The notes below the pieces were generated by a model. It had not been told where the DNA came from. It did not search any database and saw only the letters and a program-made list of their open reading frames with translations. From a virus, in IMG/VR virus record IMGVR_UViG_3300027869_000002, positions 1 through 62,756 of that record: a DNA stretch of 62,756 nt, one strand, 5' to 3'. Shown piece by piece: positions 33,804 to 57,966 of this stretch (position 1 is its first letter; each line of letters opens with the position of its first letter). A program made the translations under genes and the position numbers.

Positions 33804-33818
33804 TGGAGAGTGACCCTT

Positions 33819-34103
33819 ATGGGCCTGGCTTACATCCGCATCGACGTGGCGCTGCCCTCTGAGCTGCTCGCTCGGTTCTTGCAGGGCATTCGCGATCTAG
33901 AACAGACCGCGCCAGACGATATTCAACTGGCGATCCTCACCAGCGACGACAGCGCCAGCATGCAGGAGCAGTTGGACCTGGTGAAAAACATCTCACCGGG
34001 ATTTGCGCACAGCGTGTCGGTGCCTCGATCCGAGATGACCGCCGAACAGAAGGCACGGCACGACGGTATTCTGAAGTACCTGAATCGCGATCGCGCCGGT
34101 TAG
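33819..34103 (+). CDS. Antisense cargo gene, 94 aa
   Basis: ATG with GGAGAGTGA upstream; divergent from the adaptor gene. Contains a mixed alpha/beta fold (YIRIDVALPSELLARFLQGI) and a helical end (TAEQKARHDGILKYL). No family recognised. Confidence 0.6.
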   Translation: MGLAYIRIDVALPSELLARFLQGIRDLEQTAPDDIQLAILTSDDSASMQEQLDLVKNISPGFAHSVSVPRSEMTAEQKARHDGILKYLNRDRAG

Positions 34104-34318
34104 CGCGTCTCGCGCCTGACCGCGCGGGTCTTCGCTTCGGGATTCTCGATACGGAGCCTGTTGCCGCTCGCTACGACGGTGAGCAGTTCCCGGATCTTCT
34201 TCAGCTCGGCGGTTTGTGCGTCCATAGCTTCCTGCAGCCACGGCGCATGTAGCGAGGGTCCACCGCAGGAGTGCAGCTCGCCCGGCGCGACCTTGCAGGC
34301 GCAGTTGGGGCAGGTCAA
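34100..34318 (-). CDS. Zinc-ribbon plus helix protein, 72 aa
   Basis: A TTG at 34318 overlaps the upstream stop (TTGA). Begins TCPNCACKV with a later HSC, a likely zinc knuckle, followed by a helical tail (AELKKIRELLTVVA). The longer in-frame upstream extension overlaps a better gene and is rejected. Confidence 0.55.
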   Translation of the reverse strand: MTCPNCACKVAPGELHSCGGPSLHAPWLQEAMDAQTAELKKIRELLTVVASGNRLRIENPEAKTRAVRRETR

Positions 34319-34605
34319 TTGCGCATCCCCATGGGCATGGATACAGCCGGCACGATCAGGCTGCGCTGGATCGGCTCCATAAACGCGTGCTTGTGCGCGG
34401 TGCAGTAATGGCCTTCCGGTTGAATCAGCCATCCGAGACTGACCAGGTGATTGAAGAACCCCTGCACCACGTTGTTCTTGGGGACGCCCGGAGCCATCTG
34501 CCCGAACTGCTGTTCGAGGCAGCGGCCGTTATCACACTGCACGCGCATGATGGCCGCGTCGGGCTGGCCTGGCTGCCCTTTCTGGGAGCCTATACGGAAT
34601 GACAT
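34315..34605 (-). CDS. Hypothetical protein, 96 aa
   Basis: Contains CDNGRCLEQQFGQMAPG, then VVQGFFNHLVSLGWLIQPEG and YCTAHKHAF, so Cys/His spaced for possible metal binding and a winged-helix-like middle. Overlaps the plus-strand HD-like gene by seven bases head to head. Confidence 0.6.
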   Translation of the reverse strand: MSFRIGSQKGQPGQPDAAIMRVQCDNGRCLEQQFGQMAPGVPKNNVVQGFFNHLVSLGWLIQPEGHYCTAHKHAFMEPIQRSLIVPAVSMPMGMRN

Positions 34606-34820
34606 CTATTCTCTTTCTTACCAGGAACCCGCTACAGGATTATGCCGGGTACATCCAACAGATCAGGGACTCGCGAGATACTCTCGCCTTGGCGGTCAAG
34701 CTCGCGGATCTGAGAGACCACCTTCGCCCGAACTGTCCGGCTCGACTGCGACCGCAATATCAGAAGGCTTGGCAGACTTTGACAGGCGGCCCTTTTCCCA
34801 CCATTCCCAAAGGTGACTGA
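34599..34820 (+). CDS. HD-family phosphohydrolase C-terminal-like protein, 73 aa
   Basis: TLALAVKLADLRDHLRP followed by ARLRPQYQKAWQTL matches the last helices of HD-domain hydrolases related to GTP pyrophosphokinases (pattern A-VKLADL-DN). The catalytic HD half is absent, so it is a stand-alone C-terminal segment. It is antisense to, and overlaps by 125 bases, the 3' end of the glycosyltransferase gene. Confidence 0.55.
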   Translation: MTSILFLTRNPLQDYAGYIQQIRDSRDTLALAVKLADLRDHLRPNCPARLRPQYQKAWQTLTGGPFPTIPKGD

Positions 34821-35514
34821 CTCCCGCGCTATACGTTCTCCAGGGGCGCTGCCAGCCCTTCGCGATATACTCCGCGCTCAGCGACGCCCACGGCTCCATG
34901 GGAAGCCGGTCCAGCAGGAACAGCGATAGTGCCGGCTGAATCTGCGCCCGCGTGACTTCCGGATGCGCCCTTTGCCAGGCCTCGAAGCCGCCGTATTTCC
35001 CCTCCGGACTCAGCGGCCGCCCTTCGAACGCGCGCCGGCGAAAGACGCCGATTCCGCCGATGGTGGCCACCTCCACGTAGGAAGGTGGACCTGGTCGCAT
35101 CTCCAGATCGCGCGTGGGCTCCGGACGATAGGCCATCGAGAAGTGCGGGCAGCGGCTGTCCGGCGGTTCGATGCCCAGCAGGTCCAGTTCCGGATGGGCT
35201 TCAAACGTGGCCGCGCATTGGTCGAGCCAGCCGGGAGGCACGATCACGTCGTTATCGATCTTGGCGAAGAACTCGGCGCCAGGCTGCGACAGGTATTCCG
35301 CCATGATTGCTACCGGGCTGCCCCATACTCCTCCGTGAATTTCCCCCGCCGTTCTGAACGGTGATTGAAATTCCAAACTCACGTTTGGAAATTCGCTGTC
35401 CTGATAGGTGATCTGGCGATCAACCAGCCCCCAGTTCGTGTTTGCCAGCAGCGCCTTGAAGCTCGCCCGCGAAAACTTCAGGCGGTGGTGCGCCAGGAAT
35501 AGGATGTCGATCAC
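34696..35514 (-). CDS. GT2-type glycosyltransferase, 272 aa
   Basis: MIDILFLAHHRLKFSRASFKAL, FFAKIDNDVIVPPGWLD (a DND metal site) and VATIGGIGVFRRRAF give the GT-A nucleotide-sugar fold with donor-site acid pair. It is the last of the sugar-modification island and overlaps the next GT by four bases. Confidence 0.75.
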   Translation of the reverse strand: MIDILFLAHHRLKFSRASFKALLANTNWGLVDRQITYQDSEFPNVSLEFQSPFRTAGEIHGGVWGSPVAIMAEYLSQPGAEFFAKIDNDVIVPPGWLDQCAATFEAHPELDLLGIEPPDSRCPHFSMAYRPEPTRDLEMRPGPPSYVEVATIGGIGVFRRRAFEGRPLSPEGKYGGFEAWQRAHPEVTRAQIQPALSLFLLDRLPMEPWASLSAEYIAKGWQRPWRTYSAGVSHLWEWWEKGRLSKSAKPSDIAVAVEPDSSGEGGLSDPRA

Positions 35515-36146
35515 CTGGTGGCCTCGGCGAAACTGGCGCTGGTCGACGCCTTCACGGCCGCGATTCGATGCAGGATTTTGCGCAGATCATCGCCATGGCC
35601 TGGCTGCTTCCACATCCGGTCCGAATTGCTCTCATATTCAAGCCGCCTGATTGGCAGGTCCAGCTCGAAAAACGGATTCAGCGCCGTGAAGACGCGGTCG
35701 CATTCTCGGTAGAACAAATCGTCGAATGGAAGTACGCCAAAGTAACGGTCGAAGCAGAAGCGCAGGTTGCGGTGAAACAGCGCCCCCCAGCCCACGAGAC
35801 TGATTCCGAGCGGGGCGTATGCCCGCCGGTGGCCAGGCGAAGGTATGTTGCAGGCGATTTCTTCCTGCGTCATTCGGTTATCGCAGATGGGCGATAGTGG
35901 CCCGGCACCCTTCTCCGCTCGCTCGATGAATTCCCGCACAGGCACCACGCAATCGTCATCCTGCACATAAATCCATTCGTGCTTCGCTTCGGCGATTCCC
36001 AGGTATCGCCCATAGACCTTAACGTCCAGCTTCCGTTTCGAGTTATCCCAGACCACGATGTCATCAAACGGCAGTGACTCCAGGATGGGAGACAGGTCCA
36101 CATCGCCCTTGGTGACGAGGACGGCCGAGATGTCAGAGCAGTTCAC
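35511..36146 (-). CDS. Glycosyltransferase-like protein, 211 aa
   Basis: GT-A fold: MNCSDISAVLVTKGDVDLSPI strand, VWDNSK, EWIYVQDDDCVVP (DDD metal motif), GWGALFHRNLRF, LPFDDLFYRECDRVF. A C-terminal REE/REC acidic pair could be the base. Translationally coupled to both neighbours. Confidence 0.75.
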   Translation of the reverse strand: MNCSDISAVLVTKGDVDLSPILESLPFDDIVVWDNSKRKLDVKVYGRYLGIAEAKHEWIYVQDDDCVVPVREFIERAEKGAGPLSPICDNRMTQEEIACNIPSPGHRRAYAPLGISLVGWGALFHRNLRFCFDRYFGVLPFDDLFYRECDRVFTALNPFFELDLPIRRLEYESNSDRMWKQPGHGDDLRKILHRIAAVKASTSASFAEATR

Positions 36147-37566
36147 GAAAGAACTCCAGCGCCCGCGCCTTGGTCAGTTGCCCGCTGCGGGTGTACGCGC
36201 GGGTCTTGCCATCTAACAGCGGAGGATTTAGCGGGTCCATGGCCGATCCCAGGTTGATATACGTCCGCCCGGGGAACTTCTCCCACAGCTTCACCACCGG
36301 GATGGTTCCAGCCATGCCGGCCGCCCAGAGCAGGATATCGAAGCCGAACGGGTCATTCGCCAGCTTCTCGTAAATCGAATCCACCGACGCCAGCAGGTCC
36401 TTCATGGGCGTGACCACGTGCTCGCAGCCGAGCATGCGCGCGGCCGCGGCGTGCTCCTTGGGTCCAATATACACTTTCCGCCGCGTGTCCGCCTTGACCG
36501 CCCTGTAGAAATCGAGCAGCTCGCAGGATTCGCGCGTTAGGAGCAGGGCTTCGAAGTGTAGGAAGTTCAGCCGGGCGCCCCCGATCAGCCTGGCATACTC
36601 TGCCCGGTATTCTGTCGAGCGGTTGGCACCGAACGAAGCCGAGAGCCAGTCGCCGACAAAAATTCGGCCCTGCTCCTTTTCCCAATAATCAAGCTCTGCA
36701 TCGCCGCCAGACCCATCCGGACGCCAGGCGAACAGGCGATCCCACGCCTCCTGCATCCCGCGCGCAAGTTCCGGCGAATACTGTTCGCCGTCCGCTGTGT
36801 GGCCGATTCCCTTCCGGTTGATGCACTCTAACGCGCCATCGCCGTAGCGGACGAACAGGAACGGGTTGCGGCTCCGAAGCCTGGATGTGAGGTACCCGGC
36901 GCTTTCGTCGATCGACAGGCGGGCGTAGGTCCCATTGCGGCTGAGCGGGTCGAATCTCATCTGGCTATCCGAGCTGATGACTCCCGTGGGCCTCGGCGGG
37001 CCGCCCCAGAATTCGGATGATCCCCGTACCGGGCGCTGCGCCACCACGCCGTATCCCAGCGGGAATCGAAAGCCGCCCAGGTCGATCGAAGCGCGGCGCT
37101 CGTGGCGGACGATGTCAAAGCCGGCCTGGAACAGCAGGACTTCCATCCCCGCCTTGGTGAACCGCCAGAAATCGTTAACCTCCACCTCGTCCCAATTTGT
37201 CGGGTACGTCATCACCAGGTAGCCGCCGGGTTTCAGCACACCGAATAACCGGCCCAGCCACACCTTGGGGTCGACCAGGTATTGCATCACCTGGGTGCAG
37301 ATGACGGCGTCGAAGAGCGCGCCTGCCGGCCAGGGATCGCCCTCGTCGTACGGCACATAATCGCCGTGGACAAGGTCCCGGTATGGCTGCGGCGTTCGGC
37401 ACGTCTCCGGCTTCCCGGCGCCGAAGTCCAGCACGCGGCCGCCGTAAATATATCTGCCGTGCTGCTCCATGAACCGGCGTATGGAGGTGCGCTCCAGCTC
37501 CCGCACGGTGTGCTGGTTCCACAGCTCGGGCGCGATCCAGTCCTTGGTTAAAGTGGCTTCTGCCAT
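36133..37566 (-). CDS. Methyltransferase fused to GT-D (DUF1792)-type glycosyltransferase, 477 aa
   Basis: Residues 1-190 are a class I SAM methyltransferase (GGRVLDFGAGKPETC as motif I, then FDAVICTQVMQYL, then LFGVLKPGGYLVMT). Residues 200-477 match GT-D/DUF1792 enzymes: NPFLFVRYGDGALECI, then LLTRESCELLDFYRA and FDILLWAAGMAGTIPVVKLWE, ending TYINLGSAMDPLN. The fusion suggests that one sugar is both methylated and transferred. The start at 37566 overlaps the upstream gene by 19 bases. Confidence 0.75.
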   Translation of the reverse strand: MAEATLTKDWIAPELWNQHTVRELERTSIRRFMEQHGRYIYGGRVLDFGAGKPETCRTPQPYRDLVHGDYVPYDEGDPWPAGALFDAVICTQVMQYLVDPKVWLGRLFGVLKPGGYLVMTYPTNWDEVEVNDFWRFTKAGMEVLLFQAGFDIVRHERRASIDLGGFRFPLGYGVVAQRPVRGSSEFWGGPPRPTGVISSDSQMRFDPLSRNGTYARLSIDESAGYLTSRLRSRNPFLFVRYGDGALECINRKGIGHTADGEQYSPELARGMQEAWDRLFAWRPDGSGGDAELDYWEKEQGRIFVGDWLSASFGANRSTEYRAEYARLIGGARLNFLHFEALLLTRESCELLDFYRAVKADTRRKVYIGPKEHAAAARMLGCEHVVTPMKDLLASVDSIYEKLANDPFGFDILLWAAGMAGTIPVVKLWEKFPGRTYINLGSAMDPLNPPLLDGKTRAYTRSGQLTKARALEFFRELL

Positions 37567-38183
37567 ATCCCTATCATGGCCGGGATCTCGCACTGCATCA
37601 CCGGGTCAGTGGAAAATAACTCGCGATGCACCTCCCGCAGTTCTGTATAGGACAGGTGCCTGTCGAGCTGCCCGGTGGTGAGCGAGTGATCGTGAATCAG
37701 GTTCAGCAGCTCCAGCGGACGCAGGTGCACGTGCAGGTAGAAGACGCCCCCCGGCTTCAGGATGCGGGCGATCTTGGGGAGCAGGTGGAAGCCCATCTCG
37801 CCGTGATCCAGGGCGTTGGCGCACAGGATGGTGTCGAAGACGTAATCGCCCGGGTCCCACTGTTCAAACGGCTCCGCGAAATACCGGATGTCGCCGCGCC
37901 CCTCCAGCAGGCTCAGCTCCTCATAGTGCTCGATCAGCGGATCGATCGCCACGCGCAGGCCCGCGTTCAGATGCGGAAGCATTCCCCAATACGGTCCGGT
38001 CCCGATCTCCAGGATGCTCTGATCTTCCGGTGCAACCCACGGCCGCTCGGGCGCGTGTGACCCGAAAGCCACGAGGTAGGCACGTTGCAGCGCCTTCTGC
38101 GCCAGGAGGCCGTCCGGTCCGTCGAGCAGCTCCGCCCGTGTCCAGTACTTCAGCTCGCGGAGATCTTTTCGGCTGAGGGTCAC
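37548..38183 (-). CDS. Class I SAM methyltransferase, 211 aa
   Basis: A GTG start overlaps the PIG-L stop (GTGA). SILEIGTGPYWGMLPHL is motif I, FDTILCANALDHGEM the motif IV region, and ARILKPGGVFYLHVHL the post-motif strand. Probably an O-methyltransferase acting on a sugar in this island. Confidence 0.75.
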   Translation of the reverse strand: MTLSRKDLRELKYWTRAELLDGPDGLLAQKALQRAYLVAFGSHAPERPWVAPEDQSILEIGTGPYWGMLPHLNAGLRVAIDPLIEHYEELSLLEGRGDIRYFAEPFEQWDPGDYVFDTILCANALDHGEMGFHLLPKIARILKPGGVFYLHVHLRPLELLNLIHDHSLTTGQLDRHLSYTELREVHRELFSTDPVMQCEIPAMIGIWQKPL

Positions 38184-38797
38184 TCGTAATACTCCCAGAG
38201 ATCCCGGCAGAAATGATCCCGGCACCCCAGGCGTTCCAGGTCGATCTGCGACTCGTAGCAGGCCAGCGCTCGAAGCTTGCGGCGGACCATTTCGCCCGTG
38301 AATGCCACTGGCCTATCCGGGTCTCCGTTCGGCAATCGGCGCTCGGATTTCCCGCCTCGATGCGTCTCTGTTCGATAGGTGTAGGTGAGATAGTGAGTCA
38401 CCTGGCCTGGCCAGAGGATGTCTGCGGCGCGCCCGACGGCGTTGTGCTGCTCGTGGCCATTCTCTTCAATTGCGGGGGCATAGACGTGCTCGATCTCTTC
38501 ATCTCCGAATGGCCGCCATGGCTTTATAAGTAGTAGCGCATCCGAGACCGCCTCCGCGTCCGACGCGGTCGCATGATGGTCGGGGATGCCGGCAAACATC
38601 GCGATATCACAGCCCAGTTCCAGCAGCGCGCGGCGGGTTTCGAATCGTCGATCGTCCGCAGTCACCGGATTACCCCGCTTTTGCTGGAGGAACGAATCGA
38701 AGACCACAACCACTGCCACATTCGACTTCTCGCGCTGGATGGTGAAACTAGTCCACAACGTTTCATCATCGTTGTGGGGGGCCAACACGAGCCTCAA
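38180..38797 (-). CDS. PIG-L / LmbE-type N-acetylglycan deacetylase, 205 aa
   Basis: APHNDDETLW is the PHPDDE zinc motif with Asn for Pro, followed by VVVFDSF and a distal NGHEQHNAVGRAA histidine pair that completes the site. Family enzymes remove N-acetyl groups from GlcNAc-like sugars. It is located among glycosyltransferases and methyltransferases, so it fits tailoring of a glycan. Four-base overlaps at both ends. Confidence 0.8.
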   Translation of the reverse strand: MRLVLAPHNDDETLWTSFTIQREKSNVAVVVVFDSFLQQKRGNPVTADDRRFETRRALLELGCDIAMFAGIPDHHATASDAEAVSDALLLIKPWRPFGDEEIEHVYAPAIEENGHEQHNAVGRAADILWPGQVTHYLTYTYRTETHRGGKSERRLPNGDPDRPVAFTGEMVRRKLRALACYESQIDLERLGCRDHFCRDLWEYYE

Positions 38798-39495
38798 GCG
38801 GACGCTCTCCGAAGAACCCAGGCGGCCTTCATGCGCGCGCGGGTTTCCGCGCTCTTTGGCCTACCTTTTGAAGCGACGCTGATCTTTCGTTTCGTCTCCG
38901 CTGAAAGCGGAACTCCCGGACGGACGACACGGCATATTGCTTGCTGGCGTTGTTCGGGATTCTGCAAGCGACGTTTGGCCGCCGCACTCATTGCCGCCCT
39001 GCCGGCTAGAGATTTAGGCTTCCCGGCGTTCGCGGCGCGGCATTTGTCTTTTGCGAGGTCGCTGTGCTTCCAGCCTCTGACTCTTTCGCGGGTTCGATTG
39101 GCCTCAGCGATGCGCTCCCGAGCTGCTGGATCCGCAAACCGCCGTCTATTAGCCGCGGCTATTTTCGCGCGCTGTTCTTGGGTCAGCGCAAAGCCGCCGC
39201 CGCCCTCTCCGCCCGCTCTGATATTGGTCAGGCGCGCGCCCGCATCACGAAAAGCAGCGATCCATCTTTGCTCAGCCTGGTCGAGTCCAGCCCCTTCCGC
39301 CAGTGATTCGAGCTGCACAATGGAGACCTGATAACCCGCCGATCTGATCCAGTTACAGACGTACTGCCGCATACCCCTGCGCGCAGCCCAGAGGTGGCGG
39401 TCCAGGCGATCAGCCAAAGAAGCCGTCGTCTTCCCGACGTAGCGAATCGCTCCAGTCCGATTATCGCGAAGCCCATAAATAAAGGCGCTTTCCAT
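38794..39495 (-). CDS. GIY-YIG homing endonuclease with NUMOD3 repeats, 233 aa
   Basis: AFIYGLRDNRTGAIRYVGKT is the GIY-YIG nuclease core. The Lys/Arg/Ala-rich second half has repeated A(A)xRRR and SAETRARMKAAW phrases typical of NUMOD3 DNA-binding motifs. It is free-standing, inserted in the sugar-gene row without interrupting an ORF. In-frame ATGs at 39495 and 39504 are alternative starts. Confidence 0.8.
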   Translation of the reverse strand: MESAFIYGLRDNRTGAIRYVGKTTASLADRLDRHLWAARRGMRQYVCNWIRSAGYQVSIVQLESLAEGAGLDQAEQRWIAAFRDAGARLTNIRAGGEGGGGFALTQEQRAKIAAANRRRFADPAARERIAEANRTRERVRGWKHSDLAKDKCRAANAGKPKSLAGRAAMSAAAKRRLQNPEQRQQAICRVVRPGVPLSAETKRKISVASKGRPKSAETRARMKAAWVLRRASA

Positions 39496-39554
39496 ATTCC
39501 CCATGGTCACACAGAGCGATCAAATCGAAGGTACTAGATGGGTGGTATCCAGCT

Positions 39555-40043
39555 TCAATTCTTGACCGCCTGTAACAATGCCCTCACCTTGCTGCGTCTC
39601 TCCGCGCCCTCGCCGTATTCATAGAGCTCCCAGTGCAGCGGCCGAAACAGCGCTGTGATTCCATAAGCCGGCCCCAATCTTCCGCGTTCACCCCGAGGGT
39701 GATTCCACTCTTCGCAGAAGTAGTACCGGTCATCCATGGTCCAGAACGTCGTGTGCGTGGGGTCCGCAAACGCCCCCGGATTCACCCGTCCGTCCGAGAG
39801 ATACACGCACGGCACCCACAGATCCAAAGTCCCGTTAGCCTGCAGCACGCGGTGGGCTTCGTTCAGCGTGAAGATCTTCGATGGGAGATGCTCGAACACA
39901 TCGTGGGCAATGATGTCCTCGACTGACGACGTCCGCCACGGCCAGGCCACCCGCAGGTCCGCGATCTGATCGCACGGCGGGCATTGATCCACGTTCAGAT
40001 AGCCCGGCTTCAAATCGTCCGAGCATCCCAAATGCAGCCTCAA
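39555..40043 (-). CDS. SAM-dependent methyltransferase, 162 aa
   Basis: A TTG start overlapping the stop of the microprotein (TTGA) gives the canonical beginning MRLHLGCSDDLKPGYLNVD (motif I). It is followed by VEDIIAHDVFEHLP and EAHRVLQANGTLDLWVP. Smaller than most class I enzymes. It probably modifies a glycan sugar or a protein, given the neighbours. Confidence 0.75.
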   Translation of the reverse strand: MRLHLGCSDDLKPGYLNVDQCPPCDQIADLRVAWPWRTSSVEDIIAHDVFEHLPSKIFTLNEAHRVLQANGTLDLWVPCVYLSDGRVNPGAFADPTHTTFWTMDDRYYFCEEWNHPRGERGRLGPAYGITALFRPLHWELYEYGEGAERRSKVRALLQAVKN

Positions 40044-40114
40044 AACCACTCCCGCTTCGAAGCCGCCAGGCCCGCGCACAGACTCAGGCCATAAAGGAAC
40101 AGCAGAAAGATCAT
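40040..40114 (-). CDS. Membrane microprotein, 24 aa
   Basis: ATGA overlap with the GT2 stop and TTGA overlap with the methyltransferase start. IFLLFLYGLSLCAGLAA is a single hydrophobic helix. It may act mainly as a translational coupler, or anchor the glycan enzymes. Confidence 0.5.
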   Translation of the reverse strand: MIFLLFLYGLSLCAGLAASKREWF

Positions 40115-40824
40115 GTCAGTGCCTCAACATTGACCGCCGCGAAGAATGCCGACGGAAACGCCTCGTCCCGGATGCGCGGCCAGCCGTTCGATGCGATGTT
40201 GCGCGCGCTTGAGCTATTCGAATCGTGCGCCCGCGCCACGCACATCCCTCCGCCGTCGAGGGTGGCCACGCCGTCAATCGCTTGCGCCTGGCGCATGACT
40301 TGTACGTCCGTGGCGTCGAAGCGCGGGTTCGCGGGGAGTCCGGAGTACTCGGGCCACCGGTGCGATTTCCAGAACTCTTTGGTGTAGGCCATGGAGGTTC
40401 CGATCGCGAAGCCTTCCGCGCCTTTCCACCGGTATCCGAGCGCCGTCCGCATGTCCCAGAACAGGAGCGAGTGATAGCCGGACATGGGTTTGCCTGACTC
40501 GCCGAGCAGTCTTACCTGCTCTTCCATCCGTCCGGGCGCCGACCAGTCGTCGGAATCGAAGTGCATAATCACTTCGCCCTGGGCAAGCTGGCAGCACTTT
40601 TCACGCTTCGCCCCGATGGTTGCGCGTGGCTGTCTCAGGTACCGCAGCGAAAGCTGCTTTCCCGCACAGAAGCGATCGGCAAACGCTCCGGGGAATGACG
40701 GATCGTCTTCGTCGTCCAGAATCACCAGCTCGCGCGGCGCGTACGTCTGCGCCATGAAACACTTCACAGCGGTCCGGGCGAGCGCCTGCCTGCCCCTGGT
40801 GGGCATGATGGCGGAAACGAGCAT
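40111..40824 (-). CDS. GT2 family glycosyltransferase, 237 aa
   Basis: LVSAIMPTRGRQALARTAVKCF and ELVILDDEDD start, EVIMHFDSDDWSAPGRM (DSDD metal motif) and GEGFAIGTSMAYTKEFW-like acceptor region. It is the first enzyme of the sugar island and most canonical of its GTs. Confidence 0.85.
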   Translation of the reverse strand: MLVSAIMPTRGRQALARTAVKCFMAQTYAPRELVILDDEDDPSFPGAFADRFCAGKQLSLRYLRQPRATIGAKREKCCQLAQGEVIMHFDSDDWSAPGRMEEQVRLLGESGKPMSGYHSLLFWDMRTALGYRWKGAEGFAIGTSMAYTKEFWKSHRWPEYSGLPANPRFDATDVQVMRQAQAIDGVATLDGGGMCVARAHDSNSSSARNIASNGWPRIRDEAFPSAFFAAVNVEALT

Positions 40825-40826
40825 TC

Positions 40827-40883
40827 TCAGGCTTTCTCGCGTTTGGCCCGCGCGCGCTTCTTCTTGTCGCGGCCCTTGCTCAC
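40827..40883 (-). CDS. Basic micro-ORF, 18 aa
   Basis: A GTG overlaps the stop of the spike-like gene (GTGA), and the stop lies two bases before the GT2 start. Encodes an almost purely Lys/Arg/Ala peptide. Kept only because both junctions are tight; it may be just a coupling device. Confidence 0.35.
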   Translation of the reverse strand: MSKGRDKKKRARAKREKA

Positions 40884-41710
40884 AGGACTTCTACCGTGGC
40901 AACGATATCCCCGAGAGCGTCCACTGTGACTGCTCCACCGGTGAATACGCCCGCACCGGTGCAGGTGGCGATGGTGCCGGCAGTGGGCGACGCGGAGTAG
41001 AGCGTGCCGCCGTTATTCGTGATGGTCACCGCACCCGTGGGAACGTTGCCCGATACCGTGATGGTCCCGAGGGCTGCGACACCGGTGGAATTATTGGTAA
41101 AGGTGACGATCTGGGTGCCATAGCGCCCATCGAGAGTCGTGCCGTAGGCCTGGATGATTTTTCCCGTGTAGTCGATGAACGTTGCCGGATTGGTGTGGCA
41201 GGTCCGCGGGGGAAACGTGATCACCCCGCCGGCGGCGATCGCCGTGGTGATCGCGGTGGTGTCGTCAGTCACTCCATCGCAGCGGGCGCCTGAGTTTTCA
41301 ACCGACACGGCGCCGGTGACCTGGGATGGATTCGGCCCGCTGATCTCCGTGCGAATGGTGACCAGCACGCCTGCCCCTCCGGACCAGGTGGCGGAGATGG
41401 AATAGTGATCGTAGACCGAGGCGATCGTGGGTTTGCGCGAAGCCACGCTCGAGCCCGTGGTGGCGTTCGAATCCAGCTGCGTGCAAACGTTCAGCGACGT
41501 GCAGCCCGAAATAACTACGGTCGTTGAGGTGGGAGAGCCGAGGACCGTTTCGAGGAAGCCGGCGACCTGGGAGCTATACTGATTCGCCACCGTGATGGAG
41601 GCGCCCGAGGCGGAGATGGTCTGCGAATCGGTATGGAGCAGCCCGCCCTGGGCGAGAGTCAGCAGGCACGCGAGCAGCCCGAGCGCGATGGTCTTTGAGA
41701 GTGTGAGCAT
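40880..41710 (-). CDS. Beta-helix/pectate-lyase-like spike protein with signal-like leader, 276 aa
   Basis: The ATG at 41710 starts a hydrophobic leader (SKTIALGLLACLLTLAQGG). Residues 130-180 carry SVENSGARCDGVTDDTTAI, the entry motif of pectate-lyase-like beta-helices (GA-gDGvtDDT) found in tail spikes. The distal part is short, so the helix is truncated relative to known spikes. It lies beside the capsid decoration gene, so it may be a head fibre. Confidence 0.6.
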   Translation of the reverse strand: MLTLSKTIALGLLACLLTLAQGGLLHTDSQTISASGASITVANQYSSQVAGFLETVLGSPTSTTVVISGCTSLNVCTQLDSNATTGSSVASRKPTIASVYDHYSISATWSGGAGVLVTIRTEISGPNPSQVTGAVSVENSGARCDGVTDDTTAITTAIAAGGVITFPPRTCHTNPATFIDYTGKIIQAYGTTLDGRYGTQIVTFTNNSTGVAALGTITVSGNVPTGAVTITNNGGTLYSASPTAGTIATCTGAGVFTGGAVTVDALGDIVATVEVL

Positions 41711-42254: not shown

Positions 42255-43559
42255 TTAGGAATTGGCGCAGTAGAACACCGGGTGGGTGCCGGCGTCCAAC
42301 AGGTTGCCGTCGTAGCGCGCAAACGCCAAGAACGCCACCTGGCCAAAATCCGCAAACCGCTCGACCAGGCGCAGGACCGACATCTCCTTCACGCGCCGGA
42401 TCAGGTACTTATCCAACGGGCCGAACGCCACGCTCTTGTTGAGGTGTCCCAACTGGGCCATGTCGTTATTGATCGAGAAGCCGTAGCCGTTGATGGTGTC
42501 CGCGGCGCCGGTGGTCATGCCGGCCATCCACAAGGGGCGGCCGTACTTGTCCTTCAGGGTCTTCACGAAGCGCAGGGTCTGATCGTGGAACATGAACTTC
42601 GCGCCCTTGCGATACAGCGGGTCTACCTGGTGCTCCAGGTTGACGAAGTCGGTGTAACCGAACTGCGTGGTGGGGTCCGGAACGGTCGCGTTGTCGTCGC
42701 CGATGACGGTCTGGGTGGAAGCGGCGGACGCGGTGATGATGCCCTTCGGCTCATTGGTTCCCGAGCCCACCGTGAACTTGGTGTTCGAGATACGGCCCAG
42801 GCGGGTGCCGAATTTCTTGACGAGGAAGCTCTCCATGTCGAAGGCCGAATCCTGGAGCAGCTCGATCGAAACCTTGACCAGCTTCGAAGAGAACTTCCAG
42901 GCGCCGAACAGGATCTGGCCGAGCGACACATCCGCGGTCGAAACCTGCTGGCCTTCGCCCACGATCTCACCGGCTACCGTGGTGTCGTTGTCGGTCGGGT
43001 AGGGCAACTGCTGGCCGGTGGCGGTGTCGAGCACCTCCGCCTGGTTCCACATGTCGCCGTAATACTTCAGCGCGTCTTCGATCTTGTTGGTAAAACCAAC
43101 CGGGACGAAGAAGCCCGTGGTGGCTCCGGGATACGCACCCTGGCCGCCGGATCCCATGTCGCGCGATTCCACGTCCATGATGGTGCGGCGGGTGGTGAGG
43201 ATTTTCTTATCCTCGTCCGAAATGCCGCGGAAGCCGTACTGGTCCGGCGTCCATCCCTGGCGCATGAAGTTATTGAACGCCCGCGCTTCTTTCTTGCGGG
43301 CTTCGGCGGCCACGTCGGGGCTGTCGGCGCCGTTGGGCGCGTTTTCCCGTCGCGTGGGGTCCTGGGGCGTGCGCAGCTCCGCGTCGAGAGCACCCGAGCG
43401 TTCCATGCGCGTGATGGCTTCGAGCAACTGCTTCTGCTCGGCGTCCATGGCGTCGAATTTGGTCATGTTCTCGGCCCGCGTGGCGGGAGTCGAGAGGTCC
43501 AAAGCTGCCATGTCGGCCGCGATTTTGCCGCGCTGTTCGCGCAGCTCCTTGCTGGTCAT
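42255..43559 (-). CDS. Major capsid protein, HK97 fold, 434 aa
   Basis: Start at 43559 after CAGGAGAAAA. Residues 1-105 form a coiled-coil delta/scaffold domain with Lys/Glu heptads. The mature shell starts around TGFFVPVGFTNKI, with ISIELLQDSAFDMESFLV-like spine (KVSIELLQDSAFDMESFLV), then GYGFSINNDMAQ and RVKEMSVLRLVERFADFGQVAFLAFAR. Cleavage by the neighbouring protease should remove the N-terminus. Confidence 0.9.
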   Translation of the reverse strand: MTSKELREQRGKIAADMAALDLSTPATRAENMTKFDAMDAEQKQLLEAITRMERSGALDAELRTPQDPTRRENAPNGADSPDVAAEARKKEARAFNNFMRQGWTPDQYGFRGISDEDKKILTTRRTIMDVESRDMGSGGQGAYPGATTGFFVPVGFTNKIEDALKYYGDMWNQAEVLDTATGQQLPYPTDNDTTVAGEIVGEGQQVSTADVSLGQILFGAWKFSSKLVKVSIELLQDSAFDMESFLVKKFGTRLGRISNTKFTVGSGTNEPKGIITASAASTQTVIGDDNATVPDPTTQFGYTDFVNLEHQVDPLYRKGAKFMFHDQTLRFVKTLKDKYGRPLWMAGMTTGAADTINGYGFSINNDMAQLGHLNKSVAFGPLDKYLIRRVKEMSVLRLVERFADFGQVAFLAFARYDGNLLDAGTHPVFYCANS

Positions 43560-43699
43560 AGAGTTTTCTCCTGTTGAGTTTTGGGGTGTGACACATCGCG
43601 CCTCAGCCGCCGCGGCCCGCGGGGTGTGCGCGCTTCCGCCCTCCGCGCGTGGCATCCAAGCCAGCCCGCATCCGGGCGCGCGTCAGGCGGCGAAAATTG

Positions 43700-43927
43700 T
43701 TAGCTGATTAGCTTTCCGTCCACCAGCACGGAAAGCGTGTGCTTCGGACAGTAGAACTTTTTGTCGATCTCCCGCCAGCCTTCCGGCATTGACGGATTCG
43801 GAATCTGATGCTGGGGCCCGTAGGGCCTGTGCTGCTCCACCCCGACTTGCTCGCATCCGAAGCAGTGCCATTCGTACCGAAGCACCGCTACGGTGAATCC
43901 ACCGGGAAGGTAGCTAGGCTGCGACAT
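43700..43927 (-). CDS. Small Cys-containing protein between capsid and protease, 75 aa
   Basis: Start at 43927 overlaps the protease end by 14 bases. HCFGCEQVG with a later YCPKH could coordinate zinc. Located where some phages encode small head accessory proteins. The 43560-43699 gap shows only the capsid leader. Confidence 0.55.
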   Translation of the reverse strand: MSQPSYLPGGFTVAVLRYEWHCFGCEQVGVEQHRPYGPQHQIPNPSMPEGWREIDKKFYCPKHTLSVLVDGKLIS

Positions 43928-44780
43928 CGGGCTCCAGGGTGGCCTGGATGGCGCGCAGGCGGAAGTTGCGCTTCTCGACTTCGGGGTCGACGGCGTTCGC
44001 CTCGACTGGATCCACAGCGGCGGGCGCAGCCACGGCGGGCGGATCAACCACCACGGGCTTGGGCTCAACCTTGGGAGCCCGCTTGTGGCGCTTCATGGAG
44101 CGCTCGCCGTCCTCGGCTTCGCAGTTGGTATCCACGCAATCCGAATTCGAACACTCGGCGCACTCGCCGGCCTCGCACTGCTCGCACTCACACTTGCAAT
44201 ACGTGTTGCGCTTCTCAAAGCGGGAGCGGACTTCGGAGGGCATGCCCTGCGGAAACATGGAGCGGATGCCGGCGGTGGCGCTTTCGCTGGCCGGGAAAGT
44301 GACGGGCGAAACGTCGAACAGGTCCACGTCCAGGATGGTGCGGGTGGATTTAACCAGCTTGCCGGCGTCGTCGAATTCGTCCGCCCAGGTGTCTTTCTTG
44401 ACGATGAAGCCGATCGAGGCGCCGTCCACATCGCCGCGTTCGATCGCGTCGGTGACATGCGTGGCCATGGGTCCGGCCGGGGGAGTGTCGGTATATTTCA
44501 GGCCGGTCGAATCCACGCTCAGCACCAGGGTGCCGGGCTTGGTACGCCCCAGGATGAAATTCACATCGTGGTTGAAGAGGCACCGCACGTCCTGCTTTTC
44601 CGCTATCGCTCGGTTGAACGCCAGGGGCGACATGATTTCTTCGTATTCGTCCCACCAGTCGGAGATGGAATAGGGCACGTTGAAAACCGAGGCGTAGCCC
44701 TCGATGCGGCGCGTGTCGGCCGCACCTGTCATCCGGACTTCAGTTTTCAAGTTGCGGTATTCGATCTTCTGCTTGCTCAT
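43914..44780 (-). CDS. HK97 prohead protease with Cys-rich C-terminal extension, 288 aa
   Basis: Family S78 core: RRIEGYASVFN start, FNHDV with catalytic His71, GASIGF with Ser122, and DVDLFDVSPVTFPA. Residues about 193-222 contain eight cysteines in CKCECEQC, GECAEC, SDC and TNC, then a Lys/Pro/Val/Ala tail. Standard members end near residue 200-230 without such a cluster. It processes capsid and portal within the prohead. Confidence 0.85.
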   Translation of the reverse strand: MSKQKIEYRNLKTEVRMTGAADTRRIEGYASVFNVPYSISDWWDEYEEIMSPLAFNRAIAEKQDVRCLFNHDVNFILGRTKPGTLVLSVDSTGLKYTDTPPAGPMATHVTDAIERGDVDGASIGFIVKKDTWADEFDDAGKLVKSTRTILDVDLFDVSPVTFPASESATAGIRSMFPQGMPSEVRSRFEKRNTYCKCECEQCEAGECAECSNSDCVDTNCEAEDGERSMKRHKRAPKVEPKPVVVDPPAVAAPAAVDPVEANAVDPEVEKRNFRLRAIQATLEPDVAA

Positions 44781-46548
44781 GGCTCAACTCCTCTTTGGCT
44801 TTTCGTGCTGCGAGGTCCCGATAGACCGCGATTTTGATGGCGCCCACCGCGCGCGCTAATTCGCGGCCGGTAGCGGCGGGTTCGTCGGCTTTCCAGTCGC
44901 CCGAGCGCTTCTGCATGCCGGAAATATATTCCTGGACGAAGGAAACGACTTCGGTTGACGGCGGGTCGCTGGGGTTCACTGAATCGAGGCGCATCATGAC
45001 CGCGCCGACCTGGGTAGCGACTTCCGCCACGGCGTAAAGCACGGGCGTAAACGCCTTCTGAAAGTCGCGTAAGTCCGGCTTATCGCGGGCTAAAACGCGC
45101 TGCAATGCGTCCTGAAACACGCGGGAATAGGCGCGGATAAAGCGCTGATCTTCGGCGGGCGGCGTTTTCTTCTTGGGGTCTGGTTCGGACTCTCCGCCCG
45201 TGCCGTCGCTTCCGTCCTGCGAGTTCGGATCACCCGGCGACAATGCCAGCGGGTCCGAGGCATCCATCATGTTGACCGGCATCCAGTAGGTTTGCCCGGC
45301 CTTTCCGCCGATCGGATTCCAGTCCAGGAAGAACTCGCGGATATCGTCGGTATTGGCCAGGCCCCACTGCTTCAGGACCGTGATAATCTTCGCCCGGCTC
45401 TCGCTGTCCGGCGTCAGGAGTTCCTGATAATAGAAGCCGGGAAAGAACTTGTTCGCGGTGCGCCCAGTCTTCACAAACAGCTTGCGCTTGAATTCCTGTT
45501 GCAGCGGCTTGAACCACGGCCGCAGGGTATACTGCACCAGCTCGATGGCTTCCTGCTCGGCCGAAGAACGGTTGACCCTGCCCGACTCGCCCAGCATGCG
45601 GACGGGAACGTGGAAGATAGCCGCGATCTCTTCGCGCTGGTGCTTTCTCGTTTCGAGGAACTGCGCTTCGTTCGGTTTGATGTCCGAGGGCTTCCAGATC
45701 ATCCCGCCCTCGATCACCATGGGGCGGAGCATGTTTTCCCCGCCGTAGGCTTCGTTGATCGAGCGCTTGAAGTTCTCCATGGCCTTGGGCTCCATGGTGT
45801 GCGGGATCTCAACGACGCCCGTGGGGCGGATGCCGTTCGCAAAGAACTTGCCGCCGAACTTCTCCGCCGCGAGTGACAGCCCCATCACTTGCCGCGTGAG
45901 TTCAATAACGGGCTTGCCGAGTCTCCCGTCCAAAGACAGGCCCGGCACGTGCAGCATGTTGTCCGCGAGGATCAGGCGCGGCTCGCGCGGCGCGTTCTCC
46001 TCAAACGGATGGCCGTCGGTGGTCTCATAGATGATCTTGCCGAACGGGACCATCTCGCCCTGCACCATCAGCGGAACGACAACTCGGCGGGGCTTGGTGG
46101 AGATGGGAGACCGCGGCCACAGCCCGATTACCCGGTTCGCCTGGTCGCGTTCGATTTCGGCATAGGCATTGGTCCACAAAAGCGCGTGGGCCATATACGT
46201 CTTGATGAACGTGAACGCGGTCATCTCCTCGTTCGGTTCGTCGTGCAGGATGAAGTGCAGGTCCTGCTCGTAGGCCAGGCGCTTGCCCCTGGGGTCCAGT
46301 TGCTCGTAGACGTTCAGGTCCGTGGCGGCCATGGCGCCCGAGACGAGATCGACGCACGAATAGACCGTGGCGATTTGCAGCGCGGTGAGTTCGGAAACGC
46401 GGATGCCGGAGTCCGTCCGGCCGCCGTTGAAGATATCGAGCAACCATTCTGCTGGGTAGCTCAACGGAGTCATCGGATTTTCGAGCGATGATCGAAATTC
46501 CGGCAGAAAGCCTGCCACGCCCGCACTGATTCTCTGGAGTAGTCCCAC
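44740..46548 (-). CDS. Portal protein, HK97-type, 602 aa
   Basis: SGIRVSELTALQIATVYSCVDLVSGAMAA is the canonical phage-portal N-terminus, then PNEEMTAFTFIKTYMAHALLW, LSLAAEKFGGKFFANG and AIFHVPVRMLGESG. Residues beyond ~400 are an extension with Asp/Gly/Glu linker and helical tail. The protein is longer than the usual 400-450 residues. It overlaps the protease by 41 bases. Confidence 0.9.
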   Translation of the reverse strand: MGLLQRISAGVAGFLPEFRSSLENPMTPLSYPAEWLLDIFNGGRTDSGIRVSELTALQIATVYSCVDLVSGAMAATDLNVYEQLDPRGKRLAYEQDLHFILHDEPNEEMTAFTFIKTYMAHALLWTNAYAEIERDQANRVIGLWPRSPISTKPRRVVVPLMVQGEMVPFGKIIYETTDGHPFEENAPREPRLILADNMLHVPGLSLDGRLGKPVIELTRQVMGLSLAAEKFGGKFFANGIRPTGVVEIPHTMEPKAMENFKRSINEAYGGENMLRPMVIEGGMIWKPSDIKPNEAQFLETRKHQREEIAAIFHVPVRMLGESGRVNRSSAEQEAIELVQYTLRPWFKPLQQEFKRKLFVKTGRTANKFFPGFYYQELLTPDSESRAKIITVLKQWGLANTDDIREFFLDWNPIGGKAGQTYWMPVNMMDASDPLALSPGDPNSQDGSDGTGGESEPDPKKKTPPAEDQRFIRAYSRVFQDALQRVLARDKPDLRDFQKAFTPVLYAVAEVATQVGAVMMRLDSVNPSDPPSTEVVSFVQEYISGMQKRSGDWKADEPAATGRELARAVGAIKIAVYRDLAARKAKEELSHEQAEDRIPQLEN

Positions 46549-46593: not shown

Positions 46594-46737
46594 CTATCTG
46601 ATCACGCCAAGCTGAAACAGCAGGCTGAAGAACGCGCCCACTAGCGCGCCCGCCGCGAAGCTCAAGGCCAGCGCCAGAAACCAGGTAACGGCTATGTCGG
46701 CTCCGCGCGGAACTGTGACCCCGCCGAATCCGCTCAT
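46594..46737 (-). CDS. Small membrane protein, 47 aa
   Basis: ATGA overlap with the upstream gene. ADIAVTWFLALALSFAAGALVGAFF is a single helix. Located between portal and Ntn hydrolase, an unusual place for membrane proteins. Confidence 0.55.
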   Translation of the reverse strand: MSGFGGVTVPRGADIAVTWFLALALSFAAGALVGAFFSLLFQLGVIR

Positions 46738-46940
46738 TCCGCCTTCTTGTGACTTATCTTGCTACCCGACGAAGATGTGACAAAGGCCCACGCGAACAGC
46801 AGCCCGCCCGCGAGCAGCAGCGCGGACCGCCACGACCAGCACGCCACCGCGCCCACAATCATGGCCAGGCCGATGAGTGCGGCCAGGCCGCGGGCAGCAG
46901 CGGCGCCCGCTTCCAGACGATTCTGGACCGGGCTGCTCAT
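46734..46940 (-). CDS. Two-helix membrane protein, 68 aa
   Basis: Ala/Leu/Trp-rich segments GLAALIGLAMIVGAVACW and SALLLAGGLLFAWAFV form a hairpin of two transmembrane helices, holin-like in size. Flanked by four-base overlaps. Its place among head genes makes a lysis role uncertain. Confidence 0.6.
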   Translation of the reverse strand: MSSPVQNRLEAGAAAARGLAALIGLAMIVGAVACWSWRSALLLAGGLLFAWAFVTSSSGSKISHKKAE

Positions 46941-47476
46941 ATGGACTTCACGACGAACGGCCTGCGCACGCCAGCGCTGTGGCGCTCAGCGGCTCCGAGG
47001 GCCAGGGCCATCCGGTCCACCGCAGACAGGTTCATGTCTTTCGTCGCGAATAGTGCGCCGCAGGCTATCTGGTTTCCACATCCGCAGGCGTCGTAGCCGT
47101 CCAGAGATTCGCCCACCTGGTAATCGCTCTGCACGCTGAACAGCCGGCCGCGAAACCCTACCAGAAATGTGCCGGCGGATTCCACGTCCTTGTCTTTGGT
47201 GGCGAAGCCGCCGGCCTTGAGGCAGTCGCGAACGGCGTTCACGAACGTGGTGCACATGAAGCCGTAAACGTTCTGGCCCTCCGCCATCACGGGCGGGGAG
47301 AAGGAATAGCGGAGCAGCTGGCCCATCCGGAACGAGGACGTGAAGCCGAAGAGAAACTCACCATTCTGGAAAACCTTCGGATCAGCCCGGACGGTCAAAT
47401 CGAACCCCGCAACGCCCGCGCTATCGCCGCCAATCCAGACCTTACCCTGCTCGCAGAATCCCGCGATGGCGGTCAT
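46937..47476 (-). CDS. Proteasome beta / HslV-like Ntn hydrolase, 179 aa
   Basis: Starts M-TAIAGF, leaving Thr as N-terminal residue after Met removal. With that Thr as residue 1, Asp is at 17 (in WIGGDSAG) and Lys at 33 (in DPKVFQNG), exactly the catalytic Thr1/Asp17/Lys33 geometry of proteasome beta subunits. LFGFTSSFRMGQLL and AAERHSAGVRRPFVV fit the rest of the fold. Encoded between terminase and membrane/portal genes with four-base overlaps. Likely a phage protease, perhaps in head maturation or host-protein turnover; the substrate is unknown. Confidence 0.75.
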   Translation of the reverse strand: MTAIAGFCEQGKVWIGGDSAGVAGFDLTVRADPKVFQNGEFLFGFTSSFRMGQLLRYSFSPPVMAEGQNVYGFMCTTFVNAVRDCLKAGGFATKDKDVESAGTFLVGFRGRLFSVQSDYQVGESLDGYDACGCGNQIACGALFATKDMNLSAVDRMALALGAAERHSAGVRRPFVVKSI

Positions 47477-49134
47477 ACAACCACCGGCCCGTTATCAAAG
47501 ATGGACTTCCGGTACTTCGGCTGGTTCTCAAACAGGATCGCCCGGCACAATGCATCGACCGTAGCCGAGAGACCGTCAATCCTGCTCGATTCTCTCTCGC
47601 GGTCCGGCTTCTTAAACATGGTGAGATCGTTCTTTCTGACCAGCGACGCGCAGGAAGCGTTCCACCGCAGTACCGGATGATTCCCGTGGTGCAGTCTGCC
47701 CTGGCTGATCAGCTCCAGGATTTTCTTCGTCGGTTCGTGCAGCGTGACCAGCCCCTGCTTCACATCCATGCACTCGTATCCGTTCTCGATCATGGGAACG
47801 GAGATCTGGTGCGAGTTATAAGGGTCCCAGCAGAATTGCTCGACCTCGAACATTTGCGCGCCCCACTTCAAGCGCTCCTCGATGTCCCGATAATCGATGC
47901 ACGCGCCCGGGCAGGTTTCAATCCAGCCCTCCTCCACCCAGCGTTCGTAGGGCATGCCGTCTTTGCGCTGCAGCTTCAATACCGCGTCCTGGGGCATCCA
48001 GAAAAACGGGATCACCTCATACTGCGGGAGCAGCTCGAGTGCCGGCCCGAAGCCCTCCGTCAGAAACACAAACGCCACCGCCGACAGGTCCGTGGTCATG
48101 GAGAGATCGACGCCCACCCAGCAGCGCCGTTCGATAAACCGCTTCAGCAGCCCGTCCGGCAGCCGGCGCAATTTATCCTCGGGAAGCTTCGATCGGAGGG
48201 GCGCCGCCACCCAATCCGTCGGGCAGGCGTCCCACTTGATCATGTCGATGGCCCGGTCCTCTTTCTGATCCCAGACGTTGAGGAAGTACCGTTTGAACGA
48301 GGTGAGCTGGCCTTCTGCCAGGGCCGAGACGTATTCCTTGGCGATCTTTTCGAGCGGCAGGAATCCGCCGTTGGGAATGAGCGATGGATTCGCCTTGATC
48401 CAGGTAGCCGGTAAGGAGGGGTCGTCGGTTGGTGCGGCGCCATAGAGCCGCCCGAAGAACCTGGGGTCGGATACGATGCCTTCCTGGATCTTGCGGGTCT
48501 TCTCGTGCAGTCGCCAGGCCAGGGGTGATTCCGATTGCACGCCCGCCGTGGTGATCGCCACCGTGAGCGTCTGCTTGCGGGTGATGCCGCCCTTCGAGAG
48601 TACGTCCCAGTTCTCTTGCTGCTTGCGCGTCTTCCAGCGGTGCACTTCATCCGCCACCACGAAGGCCGGGTTCACGCCGTCCCCGAGATCTCCATCCGCC
48701 GCGATCGCGGCATAGAAGCTGTCCGGGTCGGAGCGCTTCAGAATCCGGTTCGTTCCACGCAGGATGCGGAACTGCCTCTGCAGTAGCGGCGACTGCTCCA
48801 CCATTTTGCAGGCGGCCCGGTAGACATTCATCGCCTGGCGGGTGGCAGCCGCGGCCCCGTAGACCTGGCAGCCAGGCGCAGAGGTGCAGAGCGATACCCA
48901 CAGCACCAGGCCCGCGGCGAATTCGGTCTTGCCTGCTTTTTTCGGCACTTCCAAGTACACCTGTTCGATCAGCCGGTTACCGTCGTCGCCGAGAGTCCCG
49001 AAGACCTGGACCAGCACTTCCTCCTGCCAGGGCGTGAGCAGGAACGGTTTACCCCAATACTCATCGGCTGAGTGTTTGAGGACGCCCTCGAAGAAGTTGC
49101 AGGCGGCGTCCGCGGCTTGCTGCGAGAAGGGCAC
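47473..49134 (-). CDS. Terminase large subunit, 553 aa
   Basis: ATPase: PKKAGKT (residues 64-70) as Walker A, AFVVADEVH (157-165) as Walker B. Nuclease: GVDLSMTTDLSAVAFVF near residue 340 with later DYRDIEER and WDPYNS acidic segments. Typical HK97/P27-type terminase length and neighbours. Confidence 0.92.
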   Translation of the reverse strand: MPFSQQAADAACNFFEGVLKHSADEYWGKPFLLTPWQEEVLVQVFGTLGDDGNRLIEQVYLEVPKKAGKTEFAAGLVLWVSLCTSAPGCQVYGAAAATRQAMNVYRAACKMVEQSPLLQRQFRILRGTNRILKRSDPDSFYAAIAADGDLGDGVNPAFVVADEVHRWKTRKQQENWDVLSKGGITRKQTLTVAITTAGVQSESPLAWRLHEKTRKIQEGIVSDPRFFGRLYGAAPTDDPSLPATWIKANPSLIPNGGFLPLEKIAKEYVSALAEGQLTSFKRYFLNVWDQKEDRAIDMIKWDACPTDWVAAPLRSKLPEDKLRRLPDGLLKRFIERRCWVGVDLSMTTDLSAVAFVFLTEGFGPALELLPQYEVIPFFWMPQDAVLKLQRKDGMPYERWVEEGWIETCPGACIDYRDIEERLKWGAQMFEVEQFCWDPYNSHQISVPMIENGYECMDVKQGLVTLHEPTKKILELISQGRLHHGNHPVLRWNASCASLVRKNDLTMFKKPDRERESSRIDGLSATVDALCRAILFENQPKYRKSIFDNGPVVV

Positions 49135-56848: not shown

Positions 56849-57892
56849 TTACTTCGGTCCTTTGATGCCCAGGTGATCGCACGGTGCGTCGGTGAGATCC
56901 TGTCTCACTCCCAGGTATCGTTCGGTGGTTTGAATCGACGAATGGCCCAGGCTGAGCTGGATTTGTCCTAACTCCGCCTTGCCGCCGTGCGCCAGTTTTG
57001 CAAACGTGCGCCGCAGATCGTGGGGCGCAAGGTGAGGAAGCGCCATCGCGCGGCCGTACGCGGCAACCAGGTCGTGGATGTTCTGGCCTACCAGCGGGCT
57101 CGATTGCAGCCGGCCGTGGTTATCGAGCGATCGGAAGACGCTGCCTGAGTTGCCCGCTCCAGAGAACTCTTGCCAGGCGTCGATCGCCAGCTTGGCCCAG
57201 TCCGGCATGGGCACGCTGCGGACGCGGTTCCCTTTGCCGCGAATGTCCAGGATCATCCAGCGCCCGTTGCGCTGCTGGATATCTACCCACTTCAGGTTTG
57301 CGGCTTCCGCGCGCCGCAGGCCTGCACCGATCAGTACGGCGAGGATCGCCCGATCGCGTACCCCCTTTAACGTCGAGGGGTCCGGAAGACCGAGGAGCTG
57401 CTCGGCCTGGTCCATGGTGAGCCAGGTGCCGGTGCGGACGCCTGAAGATTTCTCGCCTTTCACCCGGGCGATGCCGGCCGCCAGCTCGGGAGCGAGTAGT
57501 CCGTTGTCCGCAGCTTCCGCTGCCAGGCGCCGGACGGCCGTCAATTTCAGGTTCATTGAAGCAGGCGCCAGGCCCGAGGCCGCCAGGTGCCTTCCGTACC
57601 GCTGGACGAGCGCCTTCGAAAACGGTTCTCCTCGAGGGACCCACTCCAGGAAGCGCGATAGCGCCAGGTTATAGGCGCGCCGGCTTTGGGGTGAGCTGAG
57701 GGAATCGAGGACCAGTGCCTTGATGCGGTGCAGATCGAGGGGATCCGCCACCGGCTGGATTGCCGAGGGCGCCGGCACTATCGCCAGGTCCGCCGCGGCT
57801 GGCCGGGCCCGCTCGCTGATTTGGTTTTCGGTGGTAACGCCGGCGCCGCTCGCTGATTCCACAGAGGCGCGCTCGAGGTCCGGCTGGCTCAA
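56849..57892 (-). CDS. Tyrosine recombinase 1 (integrase), 347 aa
   Basis: A TTG start at 57892 overlapping the microprotein stop (TTGA) is preferred; the frame stays open further upstream. N-terminal SAM-like core-binding domain (SPQSRRAYNLALSRFLEWV). Catalytic domain residues: Arg in GLRRAEAANL, HDLRR (His-x-x-Arg), LGHSS, and the Tyr in TTERYLG. XerC/D-like in length. Likely phage integrase or dimer resolution enzyme. Confidence 0.88.
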   Translation of the reverse strand: MSQPDLERASVESASGAGVTTENQISERARPAAADLAIVPAPSAIQPVADPLDLHRIKALVLDSLSSPQSRRAYNLALSRFLEWVPRGEPFSKALVQRYGRHLAASGLAPASMNLKLTAVRRLAAEAADNGLLAPELAAGIARVKGEKSSGVRTGTWLTMDQAEQLLGLPDPSTLKGVRDRAILAVLIGAGLRRAEAANLKWVDIQQRNGRWMILDIRGKGNRVRSVPMPDWAKLAIDAWQEFSGAGNSGSVFRSLDNHGRLQSSPLVGQNIHDLVAAYGRAMALPHLAPHDLRRTFAKLAHGGKAELGQIQLSLGHSSIQTTERYLGVRQDLTDAPCDHLGIKGPK

Positions 57893-57966
57893 AACCAAGG
57901 CCCCAGGAGCCAGAGAATGCGGAGTTGGAGGCGTTCCCACCAGGTGAACTGCCGCAATTTCGACAT
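57889..57966 (-). CDS. Trp-rich microprotein 3, 25 aa
   Basis: QFTWWERLQLRILWLL resembles the YTWWEWL core of the microproteins at 9575 and 10621. The stop overlaps the TTG of integrase 1. Promoter-proximal place in front of a recombinase. Confidence 0.5.
   Translation of the reverse strand: MSKLRQFTWWERLQLRILWLLGPWF

Follow-up and report, generated by a model that had tools for sequence, protein, structure and literature searches.

Homologues of the proteasome were sorted by Fuchs, Alva and Lupas in 2021 into 22 groups, among which AAH and PPH are the main ones found in phages (PMC8665760). The same survey found genomic context to be uninformative and came upon no companion AAA+ protein, and it includes the connectases, which share the fold and act as ligases instead of proteases (PMC8665760). 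The nearest solved structure to the protein discussed here is that of BPH (5OVS, 5OVU; PMC5777263), which has no known partner unfoldase and was inert on every peptide and on the casein tried, yet bound epoxomicin covalently (PMC5777263). A paper of 2020 noted that a Salmonella jumbo phage encodes HslV-like proteins but no HslU (PMC7823757). The open-licence literature yielded no study of what any phage homologue does.

The present work addresses one such gene in a viral DNA of 62,756 nucleotides, the whole of which is referred to as the window. An earlier note on this DNA had put the enzyme forward as a new find, which as a family it is not, phage proteasome homologues having been described already in 2021 (PMC8665760). 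The new element is the genomic context, and here a control gene keeps our claim modest. The features of the locus are the following.

46937-47476, minus strand: proteasome-like Ntn hydrolase, probably of AAH type, 179 aa, with Thr1 as the predicted mature N-terminus (PHROG 1040, AlphaFold2, Foldseek, conservation)
47474-47476, minus strand: start codon ATG of the hydrolase, overlapping the stop codon of TerL (ATGA at 47473-47476; sequence)
47473-49134, minus strand: terminase large subunit (TerL), directly upstream of the hydrolase in transcription order (PF20441, E 5.8e-32; PF03354, E 3.6e-19; PHROG 9, E 2.3e-127)
46734-46940, minus strand: 68-aa membrane protein ORF (weak match to PHROG 502 'membrane protein', E 4e-4; homologues in L098-L103)
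46594-46737, minus strand: 47-aa hydrophobic ORF in ATGA overlap with the 68-aa ORF (sequence)
44740-46548, minus strand: HK97-type portal protein (PF04860, E 6.9e-86)
43914-44780, minus strand: S78 prohead protease, the dedicated maturation protease (PF04586, E 1.5e-36)
42255-43655, minus strand: HK97-type major capsid protein (PF05065, E 1.3e-49)

The 179-aa hydrolase frame runs on the minus strand from 47476 down to 46937, and its first residues are Met-Thr. The junction with TerL is a four-base ATGA overlap ('..GTTGTATGACC..'), the junction with the 68-aa membrane ORF is another ('..TCCATATGAGC..'), and the passage from the 68-aa to the 47-aa membrane ORF is a third ATGA overlap in a row. 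These overlapping start and stop codons show the gene to be placed within a putative late packaging and head operon. The earlier note had described a position in the head block with four-base overlaps to TerL and to a membrane gene, as well as a separate HK97-type prohead protease; both statements hold, the one through the two ATGA junctions and the Pfam-typed neighbours, the other through the Peptidase_S78 match listed above.

The pair of 68-aa and 47-aa membrane ORFs lies between TerL and portal, and a small hydrophobic ORF is found there in the related contig L100 too. Between the capsid gene and a head-tail connector (PF05135, 32102-33100), the window carries glycosyltransferase- and methyltransferase-like genes (33093-41000), and L001 and L099 have comparable ones after their capsid gene. 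Near one end of the window are two integrase/recombinase-like genes (56849-57940 and 60929-61870, the latter PF00589, E 1.4e-15), a pair which suggests a temperate phage.

Profile searches with Pfam and NCBIfam returned no match to the hydrolase. PHROG 1040, named 'peptidase HslV family', matches it with E 5.8e-19, and a homologue of this type is present in 215 phage records at E<=1. A profile built from 68 homologues and compared with PDB sequences retrieved BPH (5ovu, E 2.5e-5), HslV (E 2.9e-5) and also proteasome beta. The AlphaFold2 model, made from the alignment of the same 68 homologues, has a mean pLDDT of 96.5 and a pTM of 0.91; its elements follow in the order S1-S6, H1, H2 (residues 70-88), S7-S10, H3, H4 and S11, and the four-layer alpha-beta-beta-alpha Ntn fold is complete. 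Foldseek gave 891 PDB matches to the model at E<=0.001, led by BPH (5ovs, TM 0.82, E 4.5e-11) and followed by HslV (about 0.70), then by 20S subunits and Anbu. A predicted structure set against 20S proteasome and HslV had been proposed in the earlier note as a check on the fold; it was run, and the four-layer fold is there, with HslV and 20S beta among the matches.

Numbered from the Thr that follows the initiator Met, the protein has T1, D17 and K33 in the proteasome register, exactly the trio that had been claimed for it. Within the window, 558 Met-initiated frames are open for at least 60 codons; 32 of these begin with Met-Thr, and only the hydrolase frame has T1/D17/K33. Conservation was assessed over 80 homologues of less than 80% mutual identity, where T1, D17, K33, G43 and G131 are invariant (80/80), S47 and R49 are kept in 79/80, and nearly all members start with Met-Thr. 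The probable equivalent of the oxyanion Gly47 is Ser46, in an alignment to HslV that is gapped there, and it is Ser in 72 and Gly in 6 of the 80. A backbone NH at the oxyanion position would serve with either residue. The GSG loop of the 20S proteasome appears mostly as GCG (Cys in 67 homologues, Ser in 8). Taken from model and alignment, a phage-encoded, proteasome-like Ntn hydrolase with a predicted Thr1/Asp17/Lys33 centre is supported.

Judged from the published description of the group, the hydrolase fits AAH by predicted architecture and by phyletic range. Both are compact group I subunits with S1-S11 and H1-H4, without insertions, S12/H5 or a propeptide, and against that published description no defining difference was found. 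AAH ranges over alpha-proteobacteria, Actinobacteria and many phages; the homologues collected here come from rhizobia, Streptomyces and phages, with copies of Rhizobium/Sinorhizobium and Streptomyces carried on plasmids and others belonging to phages of Moorella and Geobacillus. Where the two accounts part is in context, since the AAH paper had none that was informative, whereas the present homologues recur beside TerL, portal and protease genes on viral contigs of 20-70 kb.

Other assignments fare less well. PPH, likewise proteasome-like and phage-encoded, is ruled out by its size of about 140 residues and its lack of H2, as the hydrolase has 179 aa and an H2 at residues 70-88. Connectase is disfavoured by the model, in which H1 and H2 are present and the two-helix S3/S4 insertion is not. 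BPH, for all its structural nearness, is only about 21% identical, is chromosomal in beta-proteobacteria and others, and has a pore loop that is long and acidic. HslV and the 20S proteasome beta subunits share the Thr1/Asp17/Lys33 centre and the Ntn fold with the hydrolase (TM about 0.65-0.73), but they are 16-20% identical to it and usually possess propeptides, of which it has none. An HslV in the strict sense is unsupported, because BPH is the better structural match and the phage records searched contain no HslU; the name of PHROG 1040 implies HslV, whereas structurally the group lies nearer BPH and comes without an accompanying HslU. A search for AAA_2 (HslU/ClpX-type unfoldase) put none over the cut-off in 50 viral records, the window included, while matching 14/14 control genomes, and neither HslU nor a proteasomal ATPase was found in the phage records searched; an HslU of the host may be the partner instead.

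The immediate neighbours were classified for 75 representatives, and in 15 of them the homologue is directly beside TerL. Our claim of TerL adjacency is limited to contigs of 20 kb or more, because selection for hallmark genes biases the short IMG/VR contigs. Under this limit random gene order would put 1.9 of 49 beside TerL, and 10 are found there (nominal Poisson P 4e-5); at 30 kb or more, 1.1 of 37 would be expected and 9 are found (P 3e-6), both P values counting the representatives as independent. Head adjacency over all contigs, short ones included, does not exceed expectation (25 vs 22, P 0.30), and TerL adjacency in contigs >70 kb amounts to 0/14. TerL lies upstream of the homologue in some contigs and downstream in others, and by profiles these terminases fall into about five divergent groups. 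Other slots occur as well, namely portal, gene, protease (L033, L034, L051, L067) and TerL, gene, protease-capsid fusion (L026). Mapped on the tree, adjacency to TerL takes 12 changes for 15 tips, of which well supported branches force just 3. One clade of 6 homologues (support 98/96) has differing gene sites: beside TerL in the window, two small ORFs before the protease in L018, and among glycan and nucleotide-sugar genes in L001 and L019. In the large isolate phages, among them Ochrobactrum phage OC, Geobacillus virus E3 and Vibrio phage 2.058.O, the gene stands among metabolic or unknown genes. The recurrence beside TerL in unrelated head modules strengthens the tie to packaging. As a control, the ParB/methylase gene of the window phage was scanned alike and is TerL-adjacent in 2 of 27, a difference from the 10/49 of the hydrolase which is not significant (Fisher one-sided p 0.12); a glycosyltransferase control had only 4 loci and was left out. 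The claim is a modest one, in that adjacency beats random placement and, on the methylase control, does not significantly exceed that of a typical packaging-region accessory gene.

The same tie is weakened by the nearest relatives, which lack the gene both at the junction and elsewhere in their records. Found by TerL search, these relatives have TerL proteins 85-90% identical and portals 76-81% identical to those of the window. In L098, L099, L101, L102 and L103 a homologue of the 68-aa ORF begins with a start codon that shares bases with the stop codon of TerL (GTGA), and in L100 a short spacer separates the two genes, with no hydrolase there. A profile search found no homologue elsewhere in the records of the relatives, which are mostly fragments of 4-56 kb. 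As read from these junctions, the hydrolase gene is an insertion into, or a loss from, one very tight TerL/membrane-gene junction. The empty site implies that packaging in such phages does not need the hydrolase, and an essential packaging role is disfavoured.

The explanation that we consider probable is that an AAH hydrolase is carried by the phage as late accessory cargo with TerL, cleaving unfolded or particular proteins and not serving as an obligatory packaging factor. Methionine aminopeptidase removes a Met that precedes Thr, and the host enzyme would thereby expose Thr1, which would act as the nucleophile. The subunits would assemble into a BPH/HslV-like ring with the active sites facing inward. 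As an accessory cargo gene, it would be translated with TerL, and through this coupling the hydrolase would be made late in infection. From the presence of the prohead protease the earlier note had concluded that the enzyme has another target, for example host proteins or packaging factors; such targets are conjectural. Its substrates may be unfolded or particular proteins, either by-products of phage morphogenesis or host proteins, and their cleavage would proceed without an unfoldase of the phage's own, the enzyme acting by itself or together with an AAA+ protein of the host. Because BPH is inert on the substrates tested, protease activity of the hydrolase cannot be assumed. The departures from the 20S proteasome around the active site and the ligase chemistry of connectase also count against this explanation. 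On weighing the evidence, we rank late accessory proteolysis first, a dedicated head or packaging role second and a connectase-like specific reaction third.

A dedicated role would mean that AAH is expressed late and serves morphogenesis in tailed phages of middle size, having been taken up time and again into the terminase/portal/protease operon, and that it processes or removes a packaging or head protein; we hold this to be unlikely. Likewise unlikely is that the hydrolase is a morphogenesis factor which processes or clears a terminase, portal, scaffold or protease product and is kept nearby for that reason. What speaks for such a factor is that TerL, portal, S78 protease or head-morphogenesis genes are frequent among the immediate neighbours of the homologues, that TerL adjacency exceeds random placement, that it is met with in about five divergent groups of TerL and to either side of that gene, and that the adjacent state is scattered over the tree. 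Yet the gene is missing in relatives with such similar portal and TerL proteins, it lies outside the head region in 14/14 contigs >70 kb, its surroundings are metabolic or unknown in the three isolate phages named above, and the methylase control is found near TerL too.

Less probable again is an enzyme of the connectase kind, be it a specific protein ligase or a protease of very narrow range, with one phage or host protein as its target. The fold supports both chemistries (PMC8665760), the family-specific S47 and R49 near the active site point to a narrow role, and BPH does nothing to general substrates (PMC5777263); against this, the model has H1 and H2 and is missing the S3/S4 helical insertion that is the connectase signature. 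Least of all do we expect the gene to be a mere passenger that has no function at present in the window phage. The relatives without the gene would agree with it, and so would a 71%-identical homologue among glycosyltransferase and methyltransferase genes (L001:5001-5465), which has lost about 24 residues in frame from the core, including the strand around GGTFLVG, a loss that should break the core; that copy is likely broken, or else an assembly error. The window copy, however, keeps all invariant residues, is modelled at pLDDT 96.5 and has start/stop overlaps on both sides.

Late accessory proteolysis thus stays our preferred reading, and the recurrence beside TerL together with the gene-free close relatives provides a concrete comparison of similar phages with and without the enzyme. 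If a role in head assembly were true, the hydrolase would add a second proteolytic system to HK97-type morphogenesis, as a viral threonine protease in addition to the prohead protease. If its targets were host proteins, it would represent viral use of proteasome chemistry.

Some copies depart from the usual form. Tandem, strongly diverged homologues lie head to tail, with an overlap or a 1-base gap, at L087:7454-8576 and L088:4650-5815; all have T1/D17/K33, and the arrangement is reminiscent of paired proteasome subunits. In Moorella phage MTATph1 (CDS0188, L013:8001-8558) the annotated start is internal and Thr1 is lost, and taking a TTG 42 bases upstream as the start gives back the family N-terminus.

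The gene is rare in cells: among 398 Pseudomonadota genomes sampled for gene context, the homologue was found in the starting genome only. The nearest cellular homologues, with 55-60% identity, are on plasmids of legume-nodulating Rhizobium, Sinorhizobium and Mesorhizobium (including L112), and plasmids of Paraburkholderia phymatum and P. sabiae bear homologues of about 50% identity. The homologue of R. tropici lies about 7 kb from nifHD, and those at L011:8001-8546 and L012:8001-8546 are situated between genes that we take to be rpoN and nifS/nifV/fixABC.
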